DNA from: a virus
DNA: 20,383 nt
IMG/VR virus record: IMGVR_UViG_3300040811_000778
Location: 1-20,383 of that record
Reading direction: 5' to 3' (one strand)
The position numbers and the translations under genes are program-made. The notes under the pieces were generated by a model. That model was not told the DNA's origin. It worked only from the letters and a program-made list of their open reading frames with translations, and made no database searches. Positions 11,004-19,471 of this stretch are shown here, piece after piece; the first letter of the stretch is position 1; every line of letters begins with the position of its first letter.

Positions 11004-11171
11004 TCAGGGCTTCAGCATTTGGTTGAGGTAGAGCTCGGCCTGCCATAGGTCTGAGCTGTAACGACAGATCCCGCCGAGGCAGCTTCGATAGAAGAGCTCA
11101 CCCTTCTCGGGTTCAAGCGTTTCGATGAAGCCGCCATCGCGATCGATTCTGCTAATTACCCGAACCCGCAT
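11004..11171 (-). CDS. 55-residue hypothetical protein coupled to the sigma factor
   Basis: A short gene whose ATG (11171-11169) lies inside the end of the sigma-factor gene (20-base overlap) and whose TGA (11006-11004) is one base before the next start. The product reads MRVRVISRIDRDGGFIETLE, then PEKGELFYRSCLGGICRYSS, then DLWQAELYLNQMLKP: a strand-turn-strand start, a CxxxxC pair and a C-terminal helix. It fills what would otherwise be the only gap in this cluster, with tight spacing on both sides, which supports a real gene. Co-translation with a sigma factor makes an accessory or anti-sigma role imaginable, but nothing in the sequence shows this. Confidence 0.55.
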   Translation of the reverse strand: MRVRVISRIDRDGGFIETLEPEKGELFYRSCLGGICRYSSDLWQAELYLNQMLKP

Positions 11172-12072
11172 TGATGGCTAGGCGCCTGCCTTCATTGTTG
11201 CACTGCTGGCGAATCAACCTGTTCAGGCGCATCATGGCTCGCTGTAGCCGCTGCCTGATAGCTTCGCGGCTAACGCCACCTTCTTTCCCCAAGGCCGACA
11301 GCGTGGCTTTCTTGTATCCGGGCAGCCCGTTGTACCTGCAGATCAAATACCGTTCGTCTTCCTCAAGGCTGTTCAGGGCATCGGCCAGCATGTCACGCTC
11401 AAAGGTGAAATCATCCTCCTCGTAAAGGGTTTTCTCATCTGGGATCAGATCAATCAGCCGATGCTTCTGTATATCGTTTGAGGCATGGTTGTCGAGGCTT
11501 GTGACATCCCTGGCCATCAGAAGCGATAGCACCACATCATCACGCTCGATCTCTAGCTCAGCTGCGCATTCAGCCAGCGTTGGCTCTCTGCCGGTCAGCT
11601 GTTGCTGCCGTGTCATGAATGCGCGTAGCTTGACGATCTTCTCCTGCCTGTGGATGGGGAGCCTGATCAGCCGATCGCAATCCTGCAGGCCGCGGCTGAT
11701 TGACTGGCGGATCCACCAGTACGCATAGGTGGAGAACTTATAGCCACGGGAAGGGTCGAACAGCTCAGTCGCGCGATCTAGGCCCATGTTGCCAAACTGC
11801 ACTAGATCCAGCAGTTCAAGCGATGAACAGCGGCGAATGTACTTTTTGGCGATGGTCACCACCAGGCGCAGGTTGCGGGTGATCATGCGCTCCTTCGCAC
11901 GTTGGCCGCGGCGGATGACCATTTTCTGCTCTCGCGTGTAGTCAGCAGCGTCGATGTCTTGAGACTGCAAATCCAGCATCTTCTGGATCTGCCTGCTGTA
12001 CTGAATTTCTTCTGCAGGAGTCAGCAGCGGATGGCGGGCGATCTCGTTGAGGTAGTGGTGAACGGAATCCAT
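11152..12072 (-). CDS. RpoD-family (group 2-like) sigma factor
   Basis: A 306-residue sigma-70 protein that would direct host RNA polymerase to chosen promoters. Region 1.1 is absent; region 1.2 is at 3-30 (HHYLNEIARHPLLTPAEEIQ). Regions 2.1-2.4 span about 58-145, with LVQFGNMGLDRATELFDPSR and the core YKFSTYAYWWIRQSISRGLQ. The -10 reading residues W119, W120 and Q123 are kept and Thr440 of E. coli is replaced by S126. Region 3 is about 145-200. Region 4.2 helix-turn-helix is 254-285 (KKATLSALGKEGGVSREAIR), with R269, E270, R273 and Q274 kept for the -35 element. All domains look intact. It lies downstream of a strong terminator after ssb, so its expression probably depends on readthrough or a local promoter I cannot define. 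Its ATG is in a CCATGG context. Confidence 0.93.
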   Translation of the reverse strand: MDSVHHYLNEIARHPLLTPAEEIQYSRQIQKMLDLQSQDIDAADYTREQKMVIRRGQRAKERMITRNLRLVVTIAKKYIRRCSSLELLDLVQFGNMGLDRATELFDPSRGYKFSTYAYWWIRQSISRGLQDCDRLIRLPIHRQEKIVKLRAFMTRQQQLTGREPTLAECAAELEIERDDVVLSLLMARDVTSLDNHASNDIQKHRLIDLIPDEKTLYEEDDFTFERDMLADALNSLEEDERYLICRYNGLPGYKKATLSALGKEGGVSREAIRQRLQRAMMRLNRLIRQQCNNEGRRLAINAGSGN

Positions 12073-12824: not shown

Positions 12825-13042
12825 GGCTTCTGTGGTGTGACTACGTTGCCGCAGTTCAGGTGCTTTTCAACGATGCCGAGGGCGATCCGCAACTCAGCGT
12901 TGCGCTGCTGTTCATGCGCCCACGCGACATATCGATGCTCAAAGAAGAGGCGGTCGCTGTCGTTGGTGTGCAGGTAAGCGCGGATGGCACCGGCTGCGCG
13001 AAAGAGTTGCTCACGCGGTGAGCTGCTGCTGGATGAAGTCAC
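12821..13042 (-). CDS. Hypothetical protein downstream of the annealing protein
   Basis: The frame is open back to 13117, but I place the start at the GTG at 13042 (73 residues) to limit overlap with the upstream gene to 32 bases; the start is uncertain. After a serine-rich leader, the body is one amphipathic helical unit (REQLFRAAGAIRAYLHTNDS, DRLFFEHRYVAWAHEQQRNA, ELRIALGIVEKHLNCGNVVT). It has a predicted helical bundle-like composition with no motif I recognise. Coupled by ATGA to the next gene. Position right after the recombinase suggests a recombination or replication accessory. Confidence 0.5.
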   Translation of the reverse strand: MTSSSSSSPREQLFRAAGAIRAYLHTNDSDRLFFEHRYVAWAHEQQRNAELRIALGIVEKHLNCGNVVTPQKP

Positions 13043-13736
13043 GGTGTTCTGCGGTGGTGATGTGTTGAGTGATGAGCGCGTCGGCGGCAAGGCTGAAGCG
13101 CTGCTTAAAGGCGGCAATCAGCTTGTTCCGTTGATCGGCGGGCATGTCTTTGAGCAGCTGCACGCAGAGCTGCCGTTCATCTTCTGTGATCGGCTCGCCT
13201 TGAGGCTGCTGCTGAGGCTCTGGCGCTGCTGCTGGGGCAGCTGGCTCAGGTTTGGCCGCGGCCTTGGCGGTTGCCTTGTTGGCGGGCTTGGCCGGTGCAG
13301 GATCCTCGCGGTGGGGATCCTCCACGGGATCCTTCGCCCACAGCTCAAAGGCAAGCCCCAAGCTGAATGCGGCGCAGGCGCACATGGCGCGGCGGTGCGT
13401 GTCTGTGAGGATCCTGGCGCTGACCTTCTCCAGCTGGATCGGATTGTTCCGGTGATCCATGCATGGGAAGGGGAAGCTGGCTAGCTGCTGGCCGCCAGGG
13501 CCGGCGAAATGGCCGATCACCAGGCCCGTGCCATCTGGCGCTTGATGCAACAAGCCGCCATCAGTGGCCGGTTCTAGGTGGAACTGCCAGCCGGGCGCGT
13601 GCTCGTGGAGCAGGTGCGCCACCTTTGCCCAGTTGACGTAGGACGCGGCATAAGAGCCGGTCCCCTTGGTGTCCACATCGGCCTTGGTGATGACACCGGC
13701 CAGATTGGGGATTTTGAGGCTTTCAGTTTCAGGCAT
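13011..13736 (-). CDS. Probable single-strand annealing protein (Sak3/DUF1071-like)
   Basis: A 241-residue protein. Residues 30-135 resemble the DUF1071/Sak3 branch of phage annealing proteins: YVNWAKVAHLLHEHAPGWQF (33-52), a strand pair, SFPFPCMDHRNNPI (87-100) and a helix with RRAMCACAAFSLGLAFELW (115-133), which corresponds to the 'R.l.KaiA.hGLGl.i' helix. Residues 136-182 are an Ala/Pro/Lys linker that opens with three acidic-Asp-Pro steps; residues 183-241 form a helical C-terminal domain. It would pair complementary single strands produced by an exonuclease. Neighbours RusA and SSB, and the RecB-type nuclease at the head of the strand, fit this. The family call is by pattern, so moderate. 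Confidence 0.6.
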   Translation of the reverse strand: MPETESLKIPNLAGVITKADVDTKGTGSYAASYVNWAKVAHLLHEHAPGWQFHLEPATDGGLLHQAPDGTGLVIGHFAGPGGQQLASFPFPCMDHRNNPIQLEKVSARILTDTHRRAMCACAAFSLGLAFELWAKDPVEDPHREDPAPAKPANKATAKAAAKPEPAAPAAAPEPQQQPQGEPITEDERQLCVQLLKDMPADQRNKLIAAFKQRFSLAADALITQHITTAEHRDFIQQQLTA

Positions 13737-15094: not shown

Positions 15095-15110
15095 GGGCCC
15101 CGAAGGGCCC
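15095..15110 (-). terminator. UUCG hairpin after the 15119 gene
   Basis: On the minus strand GGGCCC-TTCG-GGGCCC, a six-pair GC stem with a C(UUCG)G tetraloop, beginning eight bases beyond the stop codon of the preceding gene. It is followed by TCCCCATCC rather than a T-run, so it may stabilise a 3' end or weakly terminate. It is the same core as the hairpins at 12100 and 15450. Confidence 0.6.
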
Positions 15111-15118
15111 CAAATGAA

Positions 15119-15376
15119 TCAGGCAAATTGCATATCGACGCTGCTGTCGCATTGATCAGCGCTGATAAGCCAATTGCGGAAGTTGGCCATTTCGTAGCGG
15201 CTGCCTTCGCGGATGGTGGCCCGCTTGGCGGGATAGTGCTCAGGGTGCACTGCGTGCTCAAACCAGACGCACTTAGCGGTGCGCTTGGTGCAGATGACGG
15301 GGAAGCAGCCATGGGAGCAGGCGAGGCTGCCGAAGTAAGTCTGGCCGACTTGGAAGCGAGAGAAAGAGTTGTTCAT
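15119..15376 (-). CDS. Hypothetical protein, cassette 1
   Basis: An 85-residue protein (VGQTYFGSLACSHGCFPVIC, TKRTAKCVWFEHAVHPEHYP, AKRATIREGSRYEMANFRNW). It resembles a small SH3-like or zinc-binding beta barrel: C20, C24 and C29 with two histidines are candidates for metal binding. The pattern 'G..YFG.L.C.HGCFPV....RTAKCVWFEH..HP..Y..KR..IR' is one I associate with short phage and cyanobacterial hypothetical proteins. It has its own promoter (15421-15449) and is followed by a UUCG hairpin, so it is a self-contained transcription unit. Confidence 0.65.
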   Translation of the reverse strand: MNNSFSRFQVGQTYFGSLACSHGCFPVICTKRTAKCVWFEHAVHPEHYPAKRATIREGSRYEMANFRNWLISADQCDSSVDMQFA

Positions 15377-15420
15377 GGTGAGTTGTGAGTGTTGAGTACC
15401 GGGTGCGCCCGATGCCCTGA

Positions 15421-15449
15421 ATTATGGCATACCACGATCAAGGTGGCAA
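15421..15449 (-). promoter_or_regulatory. Promoter P1, sigma-70 type with extended -10
   Basis: Minus strand: -35 TTGCCA (15449-15444), 17-base spacer, -10 CATAAT (15426-15421) preceded by TGC, an extended -10. The shared core GGTATGCCATA also occurs in P2 and P3. The -35 directly abuts the upstream gene's hairpin. Predicted start of transcription is about 38 bases before the 15376 ATG. Confidence 0.7.
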
Positions 15450-15465
15450 GGGCCCCGAAGGGCCC
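15450..15465 (-). terminator. UUCG hairpin after the 15474 gene
   Basis: On the minus strand GGGCCC-TTCG-GGGCCC begins eight bases after the stop codon and ends directly at the -35 hexamer of promoter P1. The following bases, TTGCCACC, are not a good T-run, so termination strength is uncertain; insulation of adjacent units is a reasonable guess. Confidence 0.6.
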
Positions 15466-15473
15466 GGTTCAAA

Positions 15474-15665
15474 TCAGGCGGCGCACCAGCGGCGTGCCGT
15501 GGTGTGGCTGACGCCAAGGCGCTTGCCGATGGAGCGGTAGGAGCTGCCGGTGCGGTGCCAACGGCGTGCCCGCTGCTGAGGGCTTTCTGTGGCCCAGAGG
15601 ATCACCACCAGAGGGATGGTGAGCAGGGCGAGCAGCGTGGCGGCGAAGCAGGTGAGTGTGGCCAT
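15474..15665 (-). CDS. Membrane segment joined to a helix-turn-helix, cassette 2
   Basis: A 63-residue protein starting in an acCATGG context. Residues 3-24 (TLTCFAATLLALLTIPLVVI) form a membrane helix. Residues 30-63 are basic and end with SYRSIGKRLGVSHTTARRWC (42-61), a good match to resolvase/transposase-type helix-turn-helix segments (S..IG..LGVS..T..RW). A membrane-tethered regulator of this size is unusual. Alternatives are that the hydrophobic segment packs inside a small protein, or that translation also starts later. It is driven by P2 with a leader of about 100 bases and followed by a UUCG hairpin. Confidence 0.6.
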   Translation of the reverse strand: MATLTCFAATLLALLTIPLVVILWATESPQQRARRWHRTGSSYRSIGKRLGVSHTTARRWCAA

Positions 15666-15776
15666 GGTCTGAGTGATGATTGGTTGCCCCGTGATCGCTG
15701 CTCAGGGGCCAGGCAGGCAGTTCTCTTGTCCACTGCGGAGAATCCGGGGCGCTGCATCCGGCTTTGGCCTGCACAA

Positions 15777-15804
15777 AGTATGGCATACCGCAGCCAATCA
15801 TCAA
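15777..15804 (-). promoter_or_regulatory. Promoter P2, sigma-70 type with extended -10
   Basis: Minus strand: -35 TTGATG (15804-15799), 16-base spacer, -10 CATACT (15782-15777) preceded by TGC. The surrounding CGGTATGCCATACTTT is identical to P3 and contains the 11-base palindrome GTATGCCATAC (odd centre). A following TGCAG is also shared with P3. Confidence 0.7.
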
Positions 15805-15807
15805 AGT

Positions 15808-15821
15808 CCCGGCATCCCGGG
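15808..15821 (-). terminator. Hairpin after the 15833 gene
   Basis: On the minus strand CCCGG-GATG-CCGGG, a five-pair GC stem with a four-base loop, 11 bases beyond the stop codon and three bases before the P2 -35 element. It is followed by ACTTTGA, a weak U-run. Together with a conserved GCCTGATTTG around the stop codon it repeats the arrangement seen after the 15474 gene. Confidence 0.5.
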
Positions 15822-15832
15822 CCCGCTGCAAA

Positions 15833-16147
15833 TCAGGCCAGCGCAGCCAGAGCGTTTTGGTTCAGCCAGGCAGGCACTTGGGCAATCACATCGACGCCAT
15901 CGGCAGCCATGGCCACGATCAGCTGAGCGATCTGCCAAGGCGTGGCGCGGCGCAGCGCCATCGACACGGTGCCGGTGGTGCGCCCGGTGTCGTCGGCATA
16001 GCGGATGCCGTAAGCCAGGTTGCTGGCCTTAAAGCTGTCGCTGTACTGCACCAGCACGCTCAGCAGCTGCTCAGCAGCACCGGCTTGGTGGCGCTTGGGG
16101 CGAACTGCTGCAGGCAGTGTGTTGAAGATCGCAGTGGCGTTGCGCAT
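15833..16147 (-). CDS. Hypothetical protein, cassette 3
   Basis: A 104-residue helical protein taken from the ATG at 16147. The frame is open back to 16201, but that upstream ATG lies within the P3 -10 element and is unlikely to be translated. Helical stretches include AAEQLLSVLVQYSDSFKASN and TPWQIAQLIVAMAADGVDVI; a middle segment (LAYGIRYADDTGRTTGTVSM, then ALRRA) looks beta. The N-terminus is Ala/Pro/Arg-rich. No known family recognised. It has its own promoter P3 with a short leader containing a 15-base palindrome, and a hairpin after the stop. Confidence 0.6.
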   Translation of the reverse strand: MRNATAIFNTLPAAVRPKRHQAGAAEQLLSVLVQYSDSFKASNLAYGIRYADDTGRTTGTVSMALRRATPWQIAQLIVAMAADGVDVIAQVPAWLNQNALAALA

Positions 16148-16165
16148 GGCCTGAATTGTGAATGT

Positions 16166-16180
16166 GCGGGACCGTCCCGC
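16166..16180. promoter_or_regulatory. 15-base palindrome, candidate operator for P3
   Basis: GCGGGAC-C-GTCCCGC, a perfect 7-1-7 inverted repeat. It starts roughly five bases beyond the predicted P3 transcription start and ends 18 bases before the 16147 ATG. This is where a repressor would block P3, and in RNA a tight hairpin cannot form because the loop is one base. P1 and P2 have no matching palindrome. Confidence 0.5.
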
Positions 16181-16191
16181 TGACTGCAGAA

Positions 16192-16220
16192 AGTATGGCA
16201 TACCGTAATCCGTCTCGCAA
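16192..16220 (-). promoter_or_regulatory. Promoter P3, sigma-70 type with extended -10
   Basis: Minus strand: -35 TTGCGA (16220-16215), 17-base spacer, -10 CATACT (16197-16192) preceded by TGC. The core CGGTATGCCATACTTT is identical to P2. It begins four bases after the stop codon of the 16224 gene and drives the 15833 gene with a leader of about 38 bases. Confidence 0.7.
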
Positions 16221-16400: not shown

Positions 16401-16678
16401 CACCTCACCCCTGCATTCCATTTCGCCTTCTTAACCAATAGCCGCAGCCGCTTGATCTCATCAGCAGCAGCTTGCAGCTGAACGGCGGGCACCTCCACGG
16501 TGCTCCACGCATGGCCGCAATCTGAGCACCTGCGCCGTCGCCGCGTGTACTCCTTCAGGCCAAGCACAACCAGATCCGCATAGGGGCTATGCCTAGTGAG
16601 ATTCCCATGCCGTGTGTCTGTCGCCCACGTCTGATAGCTGCCGCACTGCAGGCAAGTGATGTCTGATCGCTTGTTCAT
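16400..16678 (-). CDS. NrdR-like zinc-ribbon protein
   Basis: A 92-residue protein from the ATG at 16678 (TGATG overlap with the nuclease stop). CLQC (9-12) and CSDC (51-54) form a four-cysteine zinc ribbon. The context DTRHGN...YTRRRRRCSDCGHAWST followed by VEV is close to the NrdR N-terminal domain (DSR...RRRR.C..C..RF.TYE). The ATP-cone of NrdR is missing; instead residues 66-92 form a charged helix (QLQAAADEIKRLRLLVKKAK). Phage Ogr/Delta-type activators have a similar small zinc fold. A DNA-binding regulator is likely; whether it acts on nucleotide metabolism or phage promoters is unknown. Confidence 0.65.
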   Translation of the reverse strand: MNKRSDITCLQCGSYQTWATDTRHGNLTRHSPYADLVVLGLKEYTRRRRRCSDCGHAWSTVEVPAVQLQAAADEIKRLRLLVKKAKWNAGVR

Positions 16679-17358
16679 CAAAAGCCTCGCAGCTGTTCTT
16701 CGGCTTGGTGGCGCTCCCAGGCCTCTTGCCATGCCGCAACACAGGCTGCAGGCTCCTGCACCTTGACCTCGCACTCGCCCGGTGCCGATACCAGCGTGGC
16801 GCACTTGTCGATGGTGATGGTCGGCCACCAGCTCGCCAGCATCGAGCAATAAGCACCAAGCTGGGCCGCGGCCGGCTTGCGGGACTTGAGGGCCGCGGCG
16901 CTGGCCACCGTCTTCAGATCACCCAGAACCGTGTTCCCCTGCGCCGTGCGCACCAAGAAATCAAAGCTGCCCCCGACGCGTTTGATGGGGTCGCACAGCT
17001 GCATCTCGACGGCCAAAACAGTGCAGTCACGCCAGAGCCAGTGATCGAGCAAAGGGTCGGCCCATTTGGACCAATGCTCGTCGATCACGACCCCGCTCAT
17101 CCCGCCATTGGCAATGCCGCGCAGGTTCTGCTCCAAGATCGCGTGGATGCTGGTGCCGCGGAGCTCCCAGCCGTCTGGGCCGTCTTTGGTGCGCTCGATC
17201 TGCTTACGGGCAGCAGGGCTCAGATCGCTCACGATGCCGGTGACGCTGAACGGCAACCAGTCGCCGCGGAAGCAGTAGCGGTGAGCGCCATGGGCCATGG
17301 ACAGGCCTTCGATAGGCGGTAGGAGTTGGCCAGCTTTCGGCAGTTGCGAGACAGGCAT
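16678..17358 (-). CDS. RecB-type PD-(D/E)XK nuclease, candidate recombination exonuclease
   Basis: A 226-residue protein from the ATG at 17358; the frame remains open 16 codons further. Motifs of the RecB/Cas4-type nuclease fold are visible: GTSIHAILEQ (68-77, an early His), AVEMQL with E119, VGGSFDFLVR with D133, VLGDLKTV with D147 and K149, and the QxxxY box QLGAYCSML (166-174). In Red-like systems such an enzyme resects double-strand ends for the annealing protein; it could alternatively process replication or packaging intermediates. It heads the minus-strand cluster and diverges from the replication operon across 59 bases. Confidence 0.75.
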   Translation of the reverse strand: MPVSQLPKAGQLLPPIEGLSMAHGAHRYCFRGDWLPFSVTGIVSDLSPAARKQIERTKDGPDGWELRGTSIHAILEQNLRGIANGGMSGVVIDEHWSKWADPLLDHWLWRDCTVLAVEMQLCDPIKRVGGSFDFLVRTAQGNTVLGDLKTVASAAALKSRKPAAAQLGAYCSMLASWWPTITIDKCATLVSAPGECEVKVQEPAACVAAWQEAWERHQAEEQLRGF

Positions 17359-17417
17359 CAGACGGTTGCCAGTTTGGGGCAAGAGTGGCACCATTTCGAG
17401 GCACACGCAACCTACGC
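17359..17417. promoter_or_regulatory. Divergent control region between nuclease and replication operons
   Basis: These 59 bases separate two divergent starts, so promoters for both arms must lie here or within the coding ends. A possible plus-strand promoter is TTGCCA (17366-17371), 17-base spacer, CACCAT (17389-17394); the -10 is poor. TTGCC...GGCAA forms a five-base inverted repeat, and GGCA recurs at 17378, 17387 and 17401. No convincing minus-strand promoter was seen. Confidence 0.35.
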
Positions 17418-17585: not shown

Positions 17586-18009
17586 GCTACGTGCTTATGA
17601 ACTGCTGCAGTGGCAGGCATTGGCCCCATTGGCAGACTTTGATGAGGGGTGGGCCCTAGAGGGCCGTTATTCCCTCCTGCAGCGAACGCGATCAGACCAG
17701 GCTATCAACGCTTGGCAAGCTGCAAACCCAGCCGAAACCAGCCCTGAACTGGCCGCGTTCAAAGAGCTGGAACGGCTGGGTTCCCTGACCCAAAACGACT
17801 TTTACTCTCCAAGCAAAGCCGCACATGGATGTTACACCAGCAGCCTCAGAGATTATCAAAGAGGTCGTGCAGGACTTCAATCAAGAGCTGCAAAACCTCA
17901 AGCAAGAGATCAAGAAACTGGTACAGGAATCACCAGACTCCGATCTAATGCCCAGAGCACGGGCAAAGGCGAACGATTACGGCTTAAGCGCCGAGATCCG
18001 AGACGCTGA
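17569..18009 (+). CDS. Hypothetical protein overlapping the ATPase gene
   Basis: A 146-residue frame. Residues 1-86 look like a genuine protein with helices (LQAELRAYELLQWQALAPLA, ALEGRYSLLQRTRSDQAINA, SPELAAFKELERLG). From about residue 87 to the end it overlaps the ATPase gene out of phase for 185 bases and becomes Arg/Gln/Ser-rich, as expected if that part is constrained by the other frame. The overlap is unusually long for this compact genome. It may be real, or the genuine protein may be shorter or fused to the ATPase by a frameshift. No family recognised. Confidence 0.5.
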   Translation: MNLQAELRAYELLQWQALAPLADFDEGWALEGRYSLLQRTRSDQAINAWQAANPAETSPELAAFKELERLGSLTQNDFYSPSKAAHGCYTSSLRDYQRGRAGLQSRAAKPQARDQETGTGITRLRSNAQSTGKGERLRLKRRDPRR

Positions 18010-19471
18010 TCTTCGCACCTTCATTCTTGAAGCAAGAGGCGCACGGATCGGCATCGCTGCCCCACGCCTTCAGGGCGAGGTTATTGATACCACGCAGGTG
18101 CGCTGGGTGTGGGAGGGCGTGTTGATGGCCGGCAGCCTGAATCTGCTGATTGCCCCGCCAAAGATCGGCAAGTCGGCGCTCATGGTGGGCATGATCGCGG
18201 CATGGGGCCGTGGCGATGAGAGCTACCTAGGGCAGCCCCTACACGGTGACTGTCCCAACGTCTACATCGTCGGCACTGACCAGCCCGAAAGCGATTGGTT
18301 CACGTTGCTGCAACGTGAAGGGTTGGTAGGCGACTCTCAGACACTGGCGGACCCCATAAAGATGCTTTGGTCTGCAGGCGCACCGCTGCACCTAACCACG
18401 GAGGGGATTGAGCACCTTCGCATGGTGTCCGAGGCTGATCCCGGATCGCTGTTCCTGATCGATAGCTACCACGCGTGCATCAGCCCGCTGGACATCGATG
18501 AGGCGTCCAGCGCACTCGACCGGCCTGCTCGGGCCCTGATGGAGGCCCTAGGGCCTAGCAAGGCCACGGTGGCCCTGATCCACCACGCGAACAAAAGCGT
18601 TAGCGGAGGCAACGCCACAAGCGCCTCTAGGGGCTCCAACGCACTCCCTGCTGCCGCCAGCCTCACGATCCTCATGAACTGGCTCAGACAGCCCACAGAG
18701 GGGCAAACGCAGAGCGACTACCGCGTAGTGCTCAAAACACAGGGCCGGGCCCGTGGTTGCTCTCTGGTAGCCGAGCTGCAGGACATCGGATGGCTGTTGC
18801 ACGGGGAGGGTGAGGACGCACTAAGGGCCGAAGCATTTGCCGATGCAGAGGCCGAGCTCAGCGGCAGGCAGGCCGACTTCTTTGACTTCATCGCTGACCG
18901 ATGGGAGGCCATGCAAATGCCCGTGGCGATCAATGAGCTTGCCAGCAACTTTTCAATAGACCGCAACAAGGCCAACCGCGTCGTGCGCCAGCTGGAGCGC
19001 AAGGGCCTGCTTAAACAGATCGGATCGACACAGCCAGGGAACGGTAGGCCGTCGCTTTTGTTCGCACCTTTGTCACCCTTGCAGCCACCCCCCTCCAGCA
19101 GGGTGGGACAAACGCAACAAACCGAGCAAACCCCCCTCGCGCGTAATAAAAGAAGGGGTTTGTCACCTTTTTCTCCTTTGTCACACATGCTCGGAGGAGG
19201 GTCGGGCAGTGCAACAAACCCCCTTTGTCACACCCCCCTTTCTGAACCCAATGCCCCCGTCGAGCTTTTGCAGCCCGATGGCGCATGGGTCAACGGCTGG
19301 AAGCTCCAAGGAAATTCGACCAAGCATTCGGTGATCGCATGGCGCTATTCCTCCCATGGCATCCAGCGCAAGACCGATCTCAGATGGGGAATCGACGTAA
19401 GGCCTAGCCAGCAGCAAGATCACGCCACCCCCTCGACTGAATTTGACCCCACAGCCGAGTTCCCCTTCTGA
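17825..19471 (+). CDS. RepA/DnaB-like AAA ATPase, probable replication protein
   Basis: A 548-residue protein. Residues 1-36 are a coiled coil. Residues 90-330 are a RecA-type ATPase (AAA_25/RepA helicase type): Walker A APPKIGKSAL (110-119), an acidic GTDQPESDW turn (150-158), Walker B LFLID (209-213) and ALIHHANKS (250-258), the sensor histidines of this family. Residues 350-405 form a winged-helix-like region (VAINELASNFSIDRNKANRV, then VRQLERKGLL). Residues 410-475 are a Pro/Ser/Thr linker whose DNA carries four TTTGTCAC repeats. The end DPTAEFPF resembles an SSB tip. It would unwind or initiate at the phage origin; no separate primase or polymerase is in the window. Confidence 0.82.
   Translation: MDVTPAASEIIKEVVQDFNQELQNLKQEIKKLVQESPDSDLMPRARAKANDYGLSAEIRDADLRTFILEARGARIGIAAPRLQGEVIDTTQVRWVWEGVLMAGSLNLLIAPPKIGKSALMVGMIAAWGRGDESYLGQPLHGDCPNVYIVGTDQPESDWFTLLQREGLVGDSQTLADPIKMLWSAGAPLHLTTEGIEHLRMVSEADPGSLFLIDSYHACISPLDIDEASSALDRPARALMEALGPSKATVALIHHANKSVSGGNATSASRGSNALPAAASLTILMNWLRQPTEGQTQSDYRVVLKTQGRARGCSLVAELQDIGWLLHGEGEDALRAEAFADAEAELSGRQADFFDFIADRWEAMQMPVAINELASNFSIDRNKANRVVRQLERKGLLKQIGSTQPGNGRPSLLFAPLSPLQPPPSSRVGQTQQTEQTPLARNKRRGLSPFSPLSHMLGGGSGSATNPLCHTPLSEPNAPVELLQPDGAWVNGWKLQGNSTKHSVIAWRYSSHGIQRKTDLRWGIDVRPSQQQDHATPSTEFDPTAEFPF
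19069..19231 (+). repeat. Four TTTGTCAC direct repeats, candidate replication origin (iterons)
   Basis: Exact TTTGTCAC copies lie at 19069-19076, 19159-19166, 19177-19184 and 19224-19231, inside the linker-coding part of the ATPase gene. Three are in one codon phase and the fourth in another, so protein repetition does not explain them. An eight-base inverted repeat, CAAACCCC (19127-19134) and GGGGTTTG (19155-19162), flanks an A-rich TAATAAAAGAA. Further CAAAC and GACAAAC variants lie between. Lambda has its iterons at the same place, within O. Confidence 0.55.

Follow-up and report, generated by a model that had tools for sequence, protein, structure and literature searches.

A 20,383-base stretch of DNA, the whole of which is called here the window, comes from an uncultured virus contig whose early and tail genes match the Synechococcus siphophage S-CBS3, and on its minus strand it raises the question of what a row of three small genes, each furnished with its own signals, may be and how such a row could have grown. 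The initial annotation had described three tandem units, each made of an extended –10 promoter, one small gene and a GC hairpin, and all of these elements are indeed present. The array consists of three predicted expression units, to which 5' stem-loops are added in the following list:

16194..16220, minus strand: promoter 1, TTGCGA-17-CATACT, holding GGTATGCCATA; the motif is also kept upstream of the G1 homologue in the related locus L023.
16166..16180, minus strand: 5' stem-loop of unit 1, GCGGGA-CGG-TCCCGC; fold –10.4 kcal/mol, z –0.65.
15833..16147, minus strand: G1, 104 aa, without known family; the L023 homologue is 90% identical.
15808..15821, minus strand: 3' GC hairpin after G1, CCCGG-GATG-CCGGG, without U-tract.
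15779..15805, minus strand: promoter 2, TTTGAT-17-CATACT, holding GGTATGCCATA; kept upstream of G2 in S-CBS3, L025 and L180.
15474..15665, minus strand: G2, 63 aa, with a hydrophobic N-terminal segment and a C-terminal helix-turn-helix.
15450..15465, minus strand: 3' hairpin after G2, GGGCCC-TTCG-GGGCCC, abutting the next –35.
15423..15449, minus strand: promoter 3, TTGCCA-17-CATAAT, holding GGTATGCCATA.
15398..15413, minus strand: 5' stem-loop of unit 3, ATCGGG-CGCA-CCCGGT; z –2.25, 2 of 200 shuffles as good; same position in relatives.
15119..15376, minus strand: G3, 85 aa, 69–79% identity within the five-member alignment A5.
15095..15111, minus strand: 3' hairpin after G3, GGGGCCC-TTCG-GGGCCC.

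The 11-mer GGTATGCCATA occurs at 16204-16194, 15789-15779 and 15433-15423 of the minus strand, that is in three exact copies against a mean of 0.013 and a maximum of one in 300 dinucleotide shuffles of the window; CGGTATGCCATACTTT is common to the units at 16204 and 15789, and the unit at 15433 has GGTATGCCATAATT. The –35-like hexamers are TTGCGA (17-nt spacer), TTTGAT or TTGATG (17 or 16) and TTGCCA (17) and, because a generic sigma70 scan of the array passes only the TTGCCA promoter of unit 3, promoters 1 and 2 rest on their extended –10 and on comparison. The three ORFs each end in GCC-TGA-TT. A hairpin placed directly before the next –35 was found at the first two boundaries of the window, where the G1 hairpin (15821-15808) ends 2–3 nt ahead of it and the G2 hairpin (15465-15450) leaves no gap, but this had to be dropped as a general rule, the relatives showing it in 9 of 82 cases against 7.1 expected from shuffled sequences. 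A GC hairpin follows each gene, but a terminator scan of the three window units gave 0 intrinsic-terminator-like sites, with a U-tract at none of them.

Relatives carry the same promoter upstream of the G2 and G3 homologues in most cases, with a differing gene arrangement. The window slot reads u65-[G1][G2][G3]-G4, in which brackets enclose a unit with its promoter; in L180, the closest relative found (sigma 88%, RusA 95%), it reads u65-[G2][GX]GY-G4, and in L023 u65-[G1][G3], then G5. The slot between u65 and G4/G5 is thus occupied by G1-G2-G3, by G2-GX-GY or by G1-G3, and it was wholly empty in none of the relatives compared. Further arrangements are [G2]-helicase/methylase-[G3] in L025 (helicase and methylase named from position and from the S-CBS3 annotation), [GX][G3]-GY in L026, [G2]-methylase-[gp38] in S-CBS3 and, without the promoter motif, G3 then G2 in L027. 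Synechococcus phage S-CBS3 (GU936715) is an isolate with two such cassettes (gp41, which is G2, and gp38) surrounded by genes in the same order, and its record lists the cassette genes as hypothetical proteins and leaves the cassettes without annotation. The initial annotation had proposed to look in related phages for the same flanks around different genes, and these were found in the same slot as well as in different ones; the same three genes between diverged flanks, the opposite outcome, were not seen in the relatives, L180, L023, S-CBS3 and L027 differing in content or order.

The reading that we favor, with a probability of about 0.76, is that S-CBS3-like cyanosiphophages possess a portable expression cassette, exchanged via the phage exonuclease/annealing system, and that the array represents three copies of it. 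Such a cassette would comprise, in this order, an extended –10 promoter for host sigma70 (TGGYATGCCATAMT, with a TTG –35), a 5'-terminal stem-loop, a leader and a single small accessory gene, to which a 3' GC hairpin is usually added. Any gene inserted in it would be expressed immediately, on a short mRNA of its own, given the activity predicted for the promoter.

Viral contigs were searched for TTGAC plus TGGYATGCCATA, which gave 85 stretches, several of them chance matches in AT-rich coding DNA. These stretches and the relatives, filtered for a TTG –35, a leader motif and an ORF, make up a set of 84 cassettes at 58 loci, a few of which overlap, with about 39 unrelated protein families, an approximate figure since ORF starts were chosen automatically and a few are perhaps wrong. 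Most loci were found through the motif, and its conservation inside them is therefore partly built in, the stem-loop searches excepted. A 16-mer promoter search alone was rejected, since most of its matches arose by chance from KYGIP codons of coding DNA, and L005 alone was clearly real. The cassettes fall into two groups, one in S-CBS3-like contigs and the other in marine contigs with roughly 36–51% identical exo, RusA, Sak or RepA; in those of the marine group that have RepA, the cassettes are found downstream of this gene, with exo on the other strand. As placement differs between the two groups, the array therefore occupies different genome slots.

The promoter could be read in more than one way, and the following proteins are among those encoded in the window that bear on its reading or on the proposed exchange:

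11152-12072, minus strand: phage-encoded group 2 sigma factor, region 2.4 = WWIRQSISR.
13011..13736, minus strand: Sak-like single-strand annealing protein, Pfam SSAP_Sak E 0.0011, below cut-off; homologues in most relatives compared; putative motor of exchange.
16678..17406, minus strand: PD-(D/E)XK exonuclease, PHROG exonuclease E 4e-22, near the upstream border of the array; putative partner of the Sak-like protein in exchange.

Region 2.4 of the sigma factor has S where E. coli sigma70 has T440. A promoter specific for this phage sigma, to which the T-to-S change and the invariant C at –12 had pointed, was considered and rejected, the sigma gene being found in only 5 of the 36 related records tested. 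Several marine cassette contigs of 30–45 kb had no sigma gene found and, as most cassette contigs are without a detected phage sigma, many of them being fragments, the extended –10 promoters are probably read by host sigma70.

Alternatively, GGTATGCC could be a binding site overlapping the –10 for a phage or host regulator, the cassettes forming one regulon and exchange being a side effect, which we consider a possibility of rather low probability, albeit compatible with the portable-cassette reading. In fact, GTATG-C-CATAC forms a dyad, the constraint on GGTATGCC exceeds what an extended –10 requires, and in 9 of 121 cassettes a second exact GGTATGCC lies exactly 11 nt, one helical turn, upstream within the promoter spacer (L036, L038, L046, L055, L069, L094, L201, L202 and L204), with none at the other offsets from 8 to 24; this doubling suggests a protein-binding site. 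However, TTGACGGTATGCC is common to these nine cassettes, which may go back to a single promoter; in window unit 3 the dyad is imperfect, and no candidate regulator was identified.

Returning to the portable cassette, its joints are visible in the comparisons: promoter, 5' hairpin and leader stay and the gene changes from ATG to stop. In 102 pairs (related contigs counted separately) leaders at least 85% identical precede unrelated proteins, some of these leaders being 41 nt long and 100% identical, and in 15 pairs one gene family stands beneath leaders less than 65% alike. Against a random level of 49%, the mean at which unrelated ORFs align, S-CBS3 gp38 and L058 share 91% upstream, 100% in the leader, 51% in the ORF and 85–89% downstream, and gp38 and L061 share 97, 90, 53 and 81–86%, respectively; the comparison of S-CBS3 with L058/L181 likewise leaves the gene between ATG and stop at the random level. 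A leader of group A, about 140 nt long, is 90–94% identical over S-CBS3 G2, L026 G3 and a third gene (L034). A near-identical leader of this length, predicted to be structured, precedes unrelated genes at L025:3133-3285, L026:4553-5140, L030:28927-28773 and L180:3380-3534, and for L180, a holder of one copy, Rfam returned no match.

These identities bear on another account, in which the signals are ordinary early promoters conserved in one phage clade, and the flanks play no special part in exchange, gene turnover being due to the usual illegitimate recombination followed by selection. The carriers examined do have early genes in common (exo, RusA, Sak or RepA), so that descent alone could keep the promoter; nevertheless, leaders of 41 to 140 nt are near-identical over unrelated genes, identity drops at the ATG and returns at the 3' hairpin, one gene is found under different leaders (L056 and L110) and the same genes recur in different slots, and we hold this account to be unlikely.

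The leader of the cassette contains a 5'-terminal stem-loop that the initial annotation had overlooked. In most leaders this hairpin lies about 10–13 nt after the motif, often with a GNRA loop, and its stems include GGGA/TCCC, GCCG/CGGC, GCGG/CCGC, GGCG/CGCC and CCCA/TGGG; in L023 the stem-loop GCGGG-CAGA-CCCGC occupies the same place as that of window unit 1 with both stem and loop changed. The rest of the leader is unstructured and rich in CACTCA/CCTCAA, with which leaders end before the ATG. Stem positions are paired in 98.1% of cells against 65.5% in shuffled sequences, and because the 13 sequences were selected for having a hairpin it is the covariation, not the pairing, that constitutes the evidence: each of the four pairs shows a double change, the covariation score is attained in 0 of 500 shuffles (related contigs counted separately), and sliding the stem partner destroys the pairing signal. 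Furthermore, when IMG/VR was searched with two stem-loop leader patterns alone, the promoter motif was found just upstream in 29 of 29 testable matches, 28 of them exact, some of the contigs having already been found earlier. Of the window units, 1 and 3 show the hairpin clearly, and only the latter folds better than shuffles; the leader of unit 2 has no clear 5' stem-loop (z +0.98). An Rfam search gave no match. That the flanks serve a dedicated recombinase as its recognition sites, in the manner of integrons, is very improbable even though they are repeated, oriented, hairpin-bearing and associated with one gene each, since stem sequence varies freely with pairing kept, long homologies rather than a single crossover point form the borders, and none of the window genes tested was recognised as an integrase or recombinase.

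At the other end of the portable cassette, a GC hairpin follows the stop codon in 55 of 84 cassettes, against 11.7 expected, and is followed by a T-run in 12 of the 84 and in 0 of the 3 window units. Some marine units (L083, L047 and L088) have a hairpin with a T-run just ahead of the next –35. In 52 of 82 upstream regions, against 28 expected, an inverted repeat encloses the –35 in its loop, which may represent a hairpin fused with a promoter. The gene preceding the first cassette ends, in S-CBS3 and others, in a TGA stop that forms part of the TTGAC –35 of that cassette. Terminal stem-loops are known to protect other mRNAs, and the 5' stem-loop and the 3' hairpin may guard both ends of a short monocistronic mRNA in the same way.

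Exchange itself could be served by the phage. The window encodes an exonuclease, a Sak-like annealing protein, SSB and RusA, and homologues of several of these are found in relatives. Because the flanks are near-identical between units and between phages, exonuclease, Sak-like protein and SSB could recombine there, and genes would be swapped, gained, lost or stacked between the ATG and the 3' hairpin. The shared flanks would be suitable as recombination arms because annealing proteins of the Sak kind recombine diverged homologies (PMC3945230, PMC2327257). From where identity stops and resumes we infer that the flanks are probably the actual arms, though selection for keeping good promoters could also account for the pattern. 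The RepA-like AAA ATPase of the window (17825-19471, plus strand) has a C-terminal match to a LexA-type DNA-binding domain (E 3e-5).

The genes carried are small, with a median of 77 aa in the 84 cassettes, and poorly classified. Protein family searches gave no convincing match for G1 and G3; G2 matches Pfam HTH_38 with E 3e-5, below the family cut-off, and Pfam, PHROGs and PADLOC returned almost nothing besides this helix-turn-helix for 30 cargo proteins. An AlphaFold model of G3 was set aside for its mean pLDDT of 47. Homologues of G3 occur in six other viral contigs, and those of G2 in S-CBS3, S-2L, L005, L025, L027 and L180. In cyanophage S-2L (MW334946; L032:5878-6126) the G2 homologue is unannotated, stands alone on the strand opposite the tail genes, and has its own TGTATGCTATACT extended –10 and a leader hairpin GAGCAT-GG-ATGCTC; with these predicted signals it appears to be a moron-like unit in an isolate. 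An extra promoter copy at L023:3088-2515, on the minus strand and opposite to the main array, stands before a small zinc-ribbon-like gene and another homologue of G2, a diverged one; these lie close to the tail gene, in a slot other than that of the main array. The cassette genes might serve host takeover or anti-defence, and promoter plus stem-loop provide a search handle for small, mostly unannotated cyanophage genes. The gain and loss of small accessory genes by phages is mostly inferred after the fact; S-CBS3, an isolate carrying cassettes, is suited to the study of their exchange and expression. With rather low probability, the flank might be a standard interchange format, uniting in one a regulon-wide operator (GGTATGCC), an RNA-recognised 5' stem-loop and homology arms; if so, cyanosiphophages of different lineages would draw interchangeable accessory genes from one pool, whatever the genome position.

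Several known systems resemble the portable cassette to different degrees. Integron gene cassettes have an integrase and attachment sites, whereas here stems covary without a fixed sequence. In Cluster K mycobacteriophages many small genes are preceded by the short SAS/ESAS repeats, about half of which come with an inverted repeat (PMC3203893), a likeness to the present case. SAS, however, is located at the start codon and is mostly tied to one gene family, whereas here promoter and leader change genes, and the 13-bp GGGATAGGAGCCC of SAS differs in sequence from the CACTCA/CCTCAA at which our leaders stop. Morons, a concept of Hendrix, are a looser category: the units are likewise single genes with their own (here predicted) promoter and 3' hairpin, differing between relatives and counting as inserted genes in that the u65-G4/G5 slot holds differing sets. 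In contrast to morons, they are in tandem, reuse shared flanks for dozens of genes, belong to the early region and were not found in bacterial genomes. The tight promoter pattern had no cyanobacterial hit among about 85,000 species, its 8 bacterial matches being discarded as none was cyanobacterial, and no prophage link like that of lambdoid morons was found. The proposal of a moron-like array grown by exchange at conserved boundaries is supported as to genes exchanged within kept flanks, though not as to its lambdoid-prophage side, and those boundaries now take in the 5' stem-loop leader. Morons have also been reported in the cyanosiphovirus P-SS2 (PMC2784084).

The closest precedent is the PeSL (promoter-early stem-loop) cassettes, which mediate gene shuffling in T4-type phages; for the cyanomyovirus S-PM2 their presence was considered unlikely (PMC4503421). 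Both systems have small cassettes between nonessential genes, with a strong sigma70-like early promoter and a stem-loop repeated in the genome, and modular shuffling of gene content between copies at the cassette, the promoter being here a matter of sequence. The PeSLs were reportedly described by Arbiol in 2010 and Comeau in 2014 in T4-type myoviruses, whereas the present carriers are unrelated S-CBS3-like cyanobacterial siphophages. The PeSL stem-loop is an effective transcription terminator; the window hairpins are without U-tract. Here the best conserved stem-loop is near the mRNA 5' end, often with a GNRA loop, the leader belongs to the unit, and each cassette has one gene. In the open-access papers searched, no description of the cassette, its stem-loop or its motif in S-CBS3-like phages was found. 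The cassette would work like a PeSL and is moron-like, and we file it under neither; what is new here is the 5'-terminal stem-loop, with its GNRA loop and compensatory changes.
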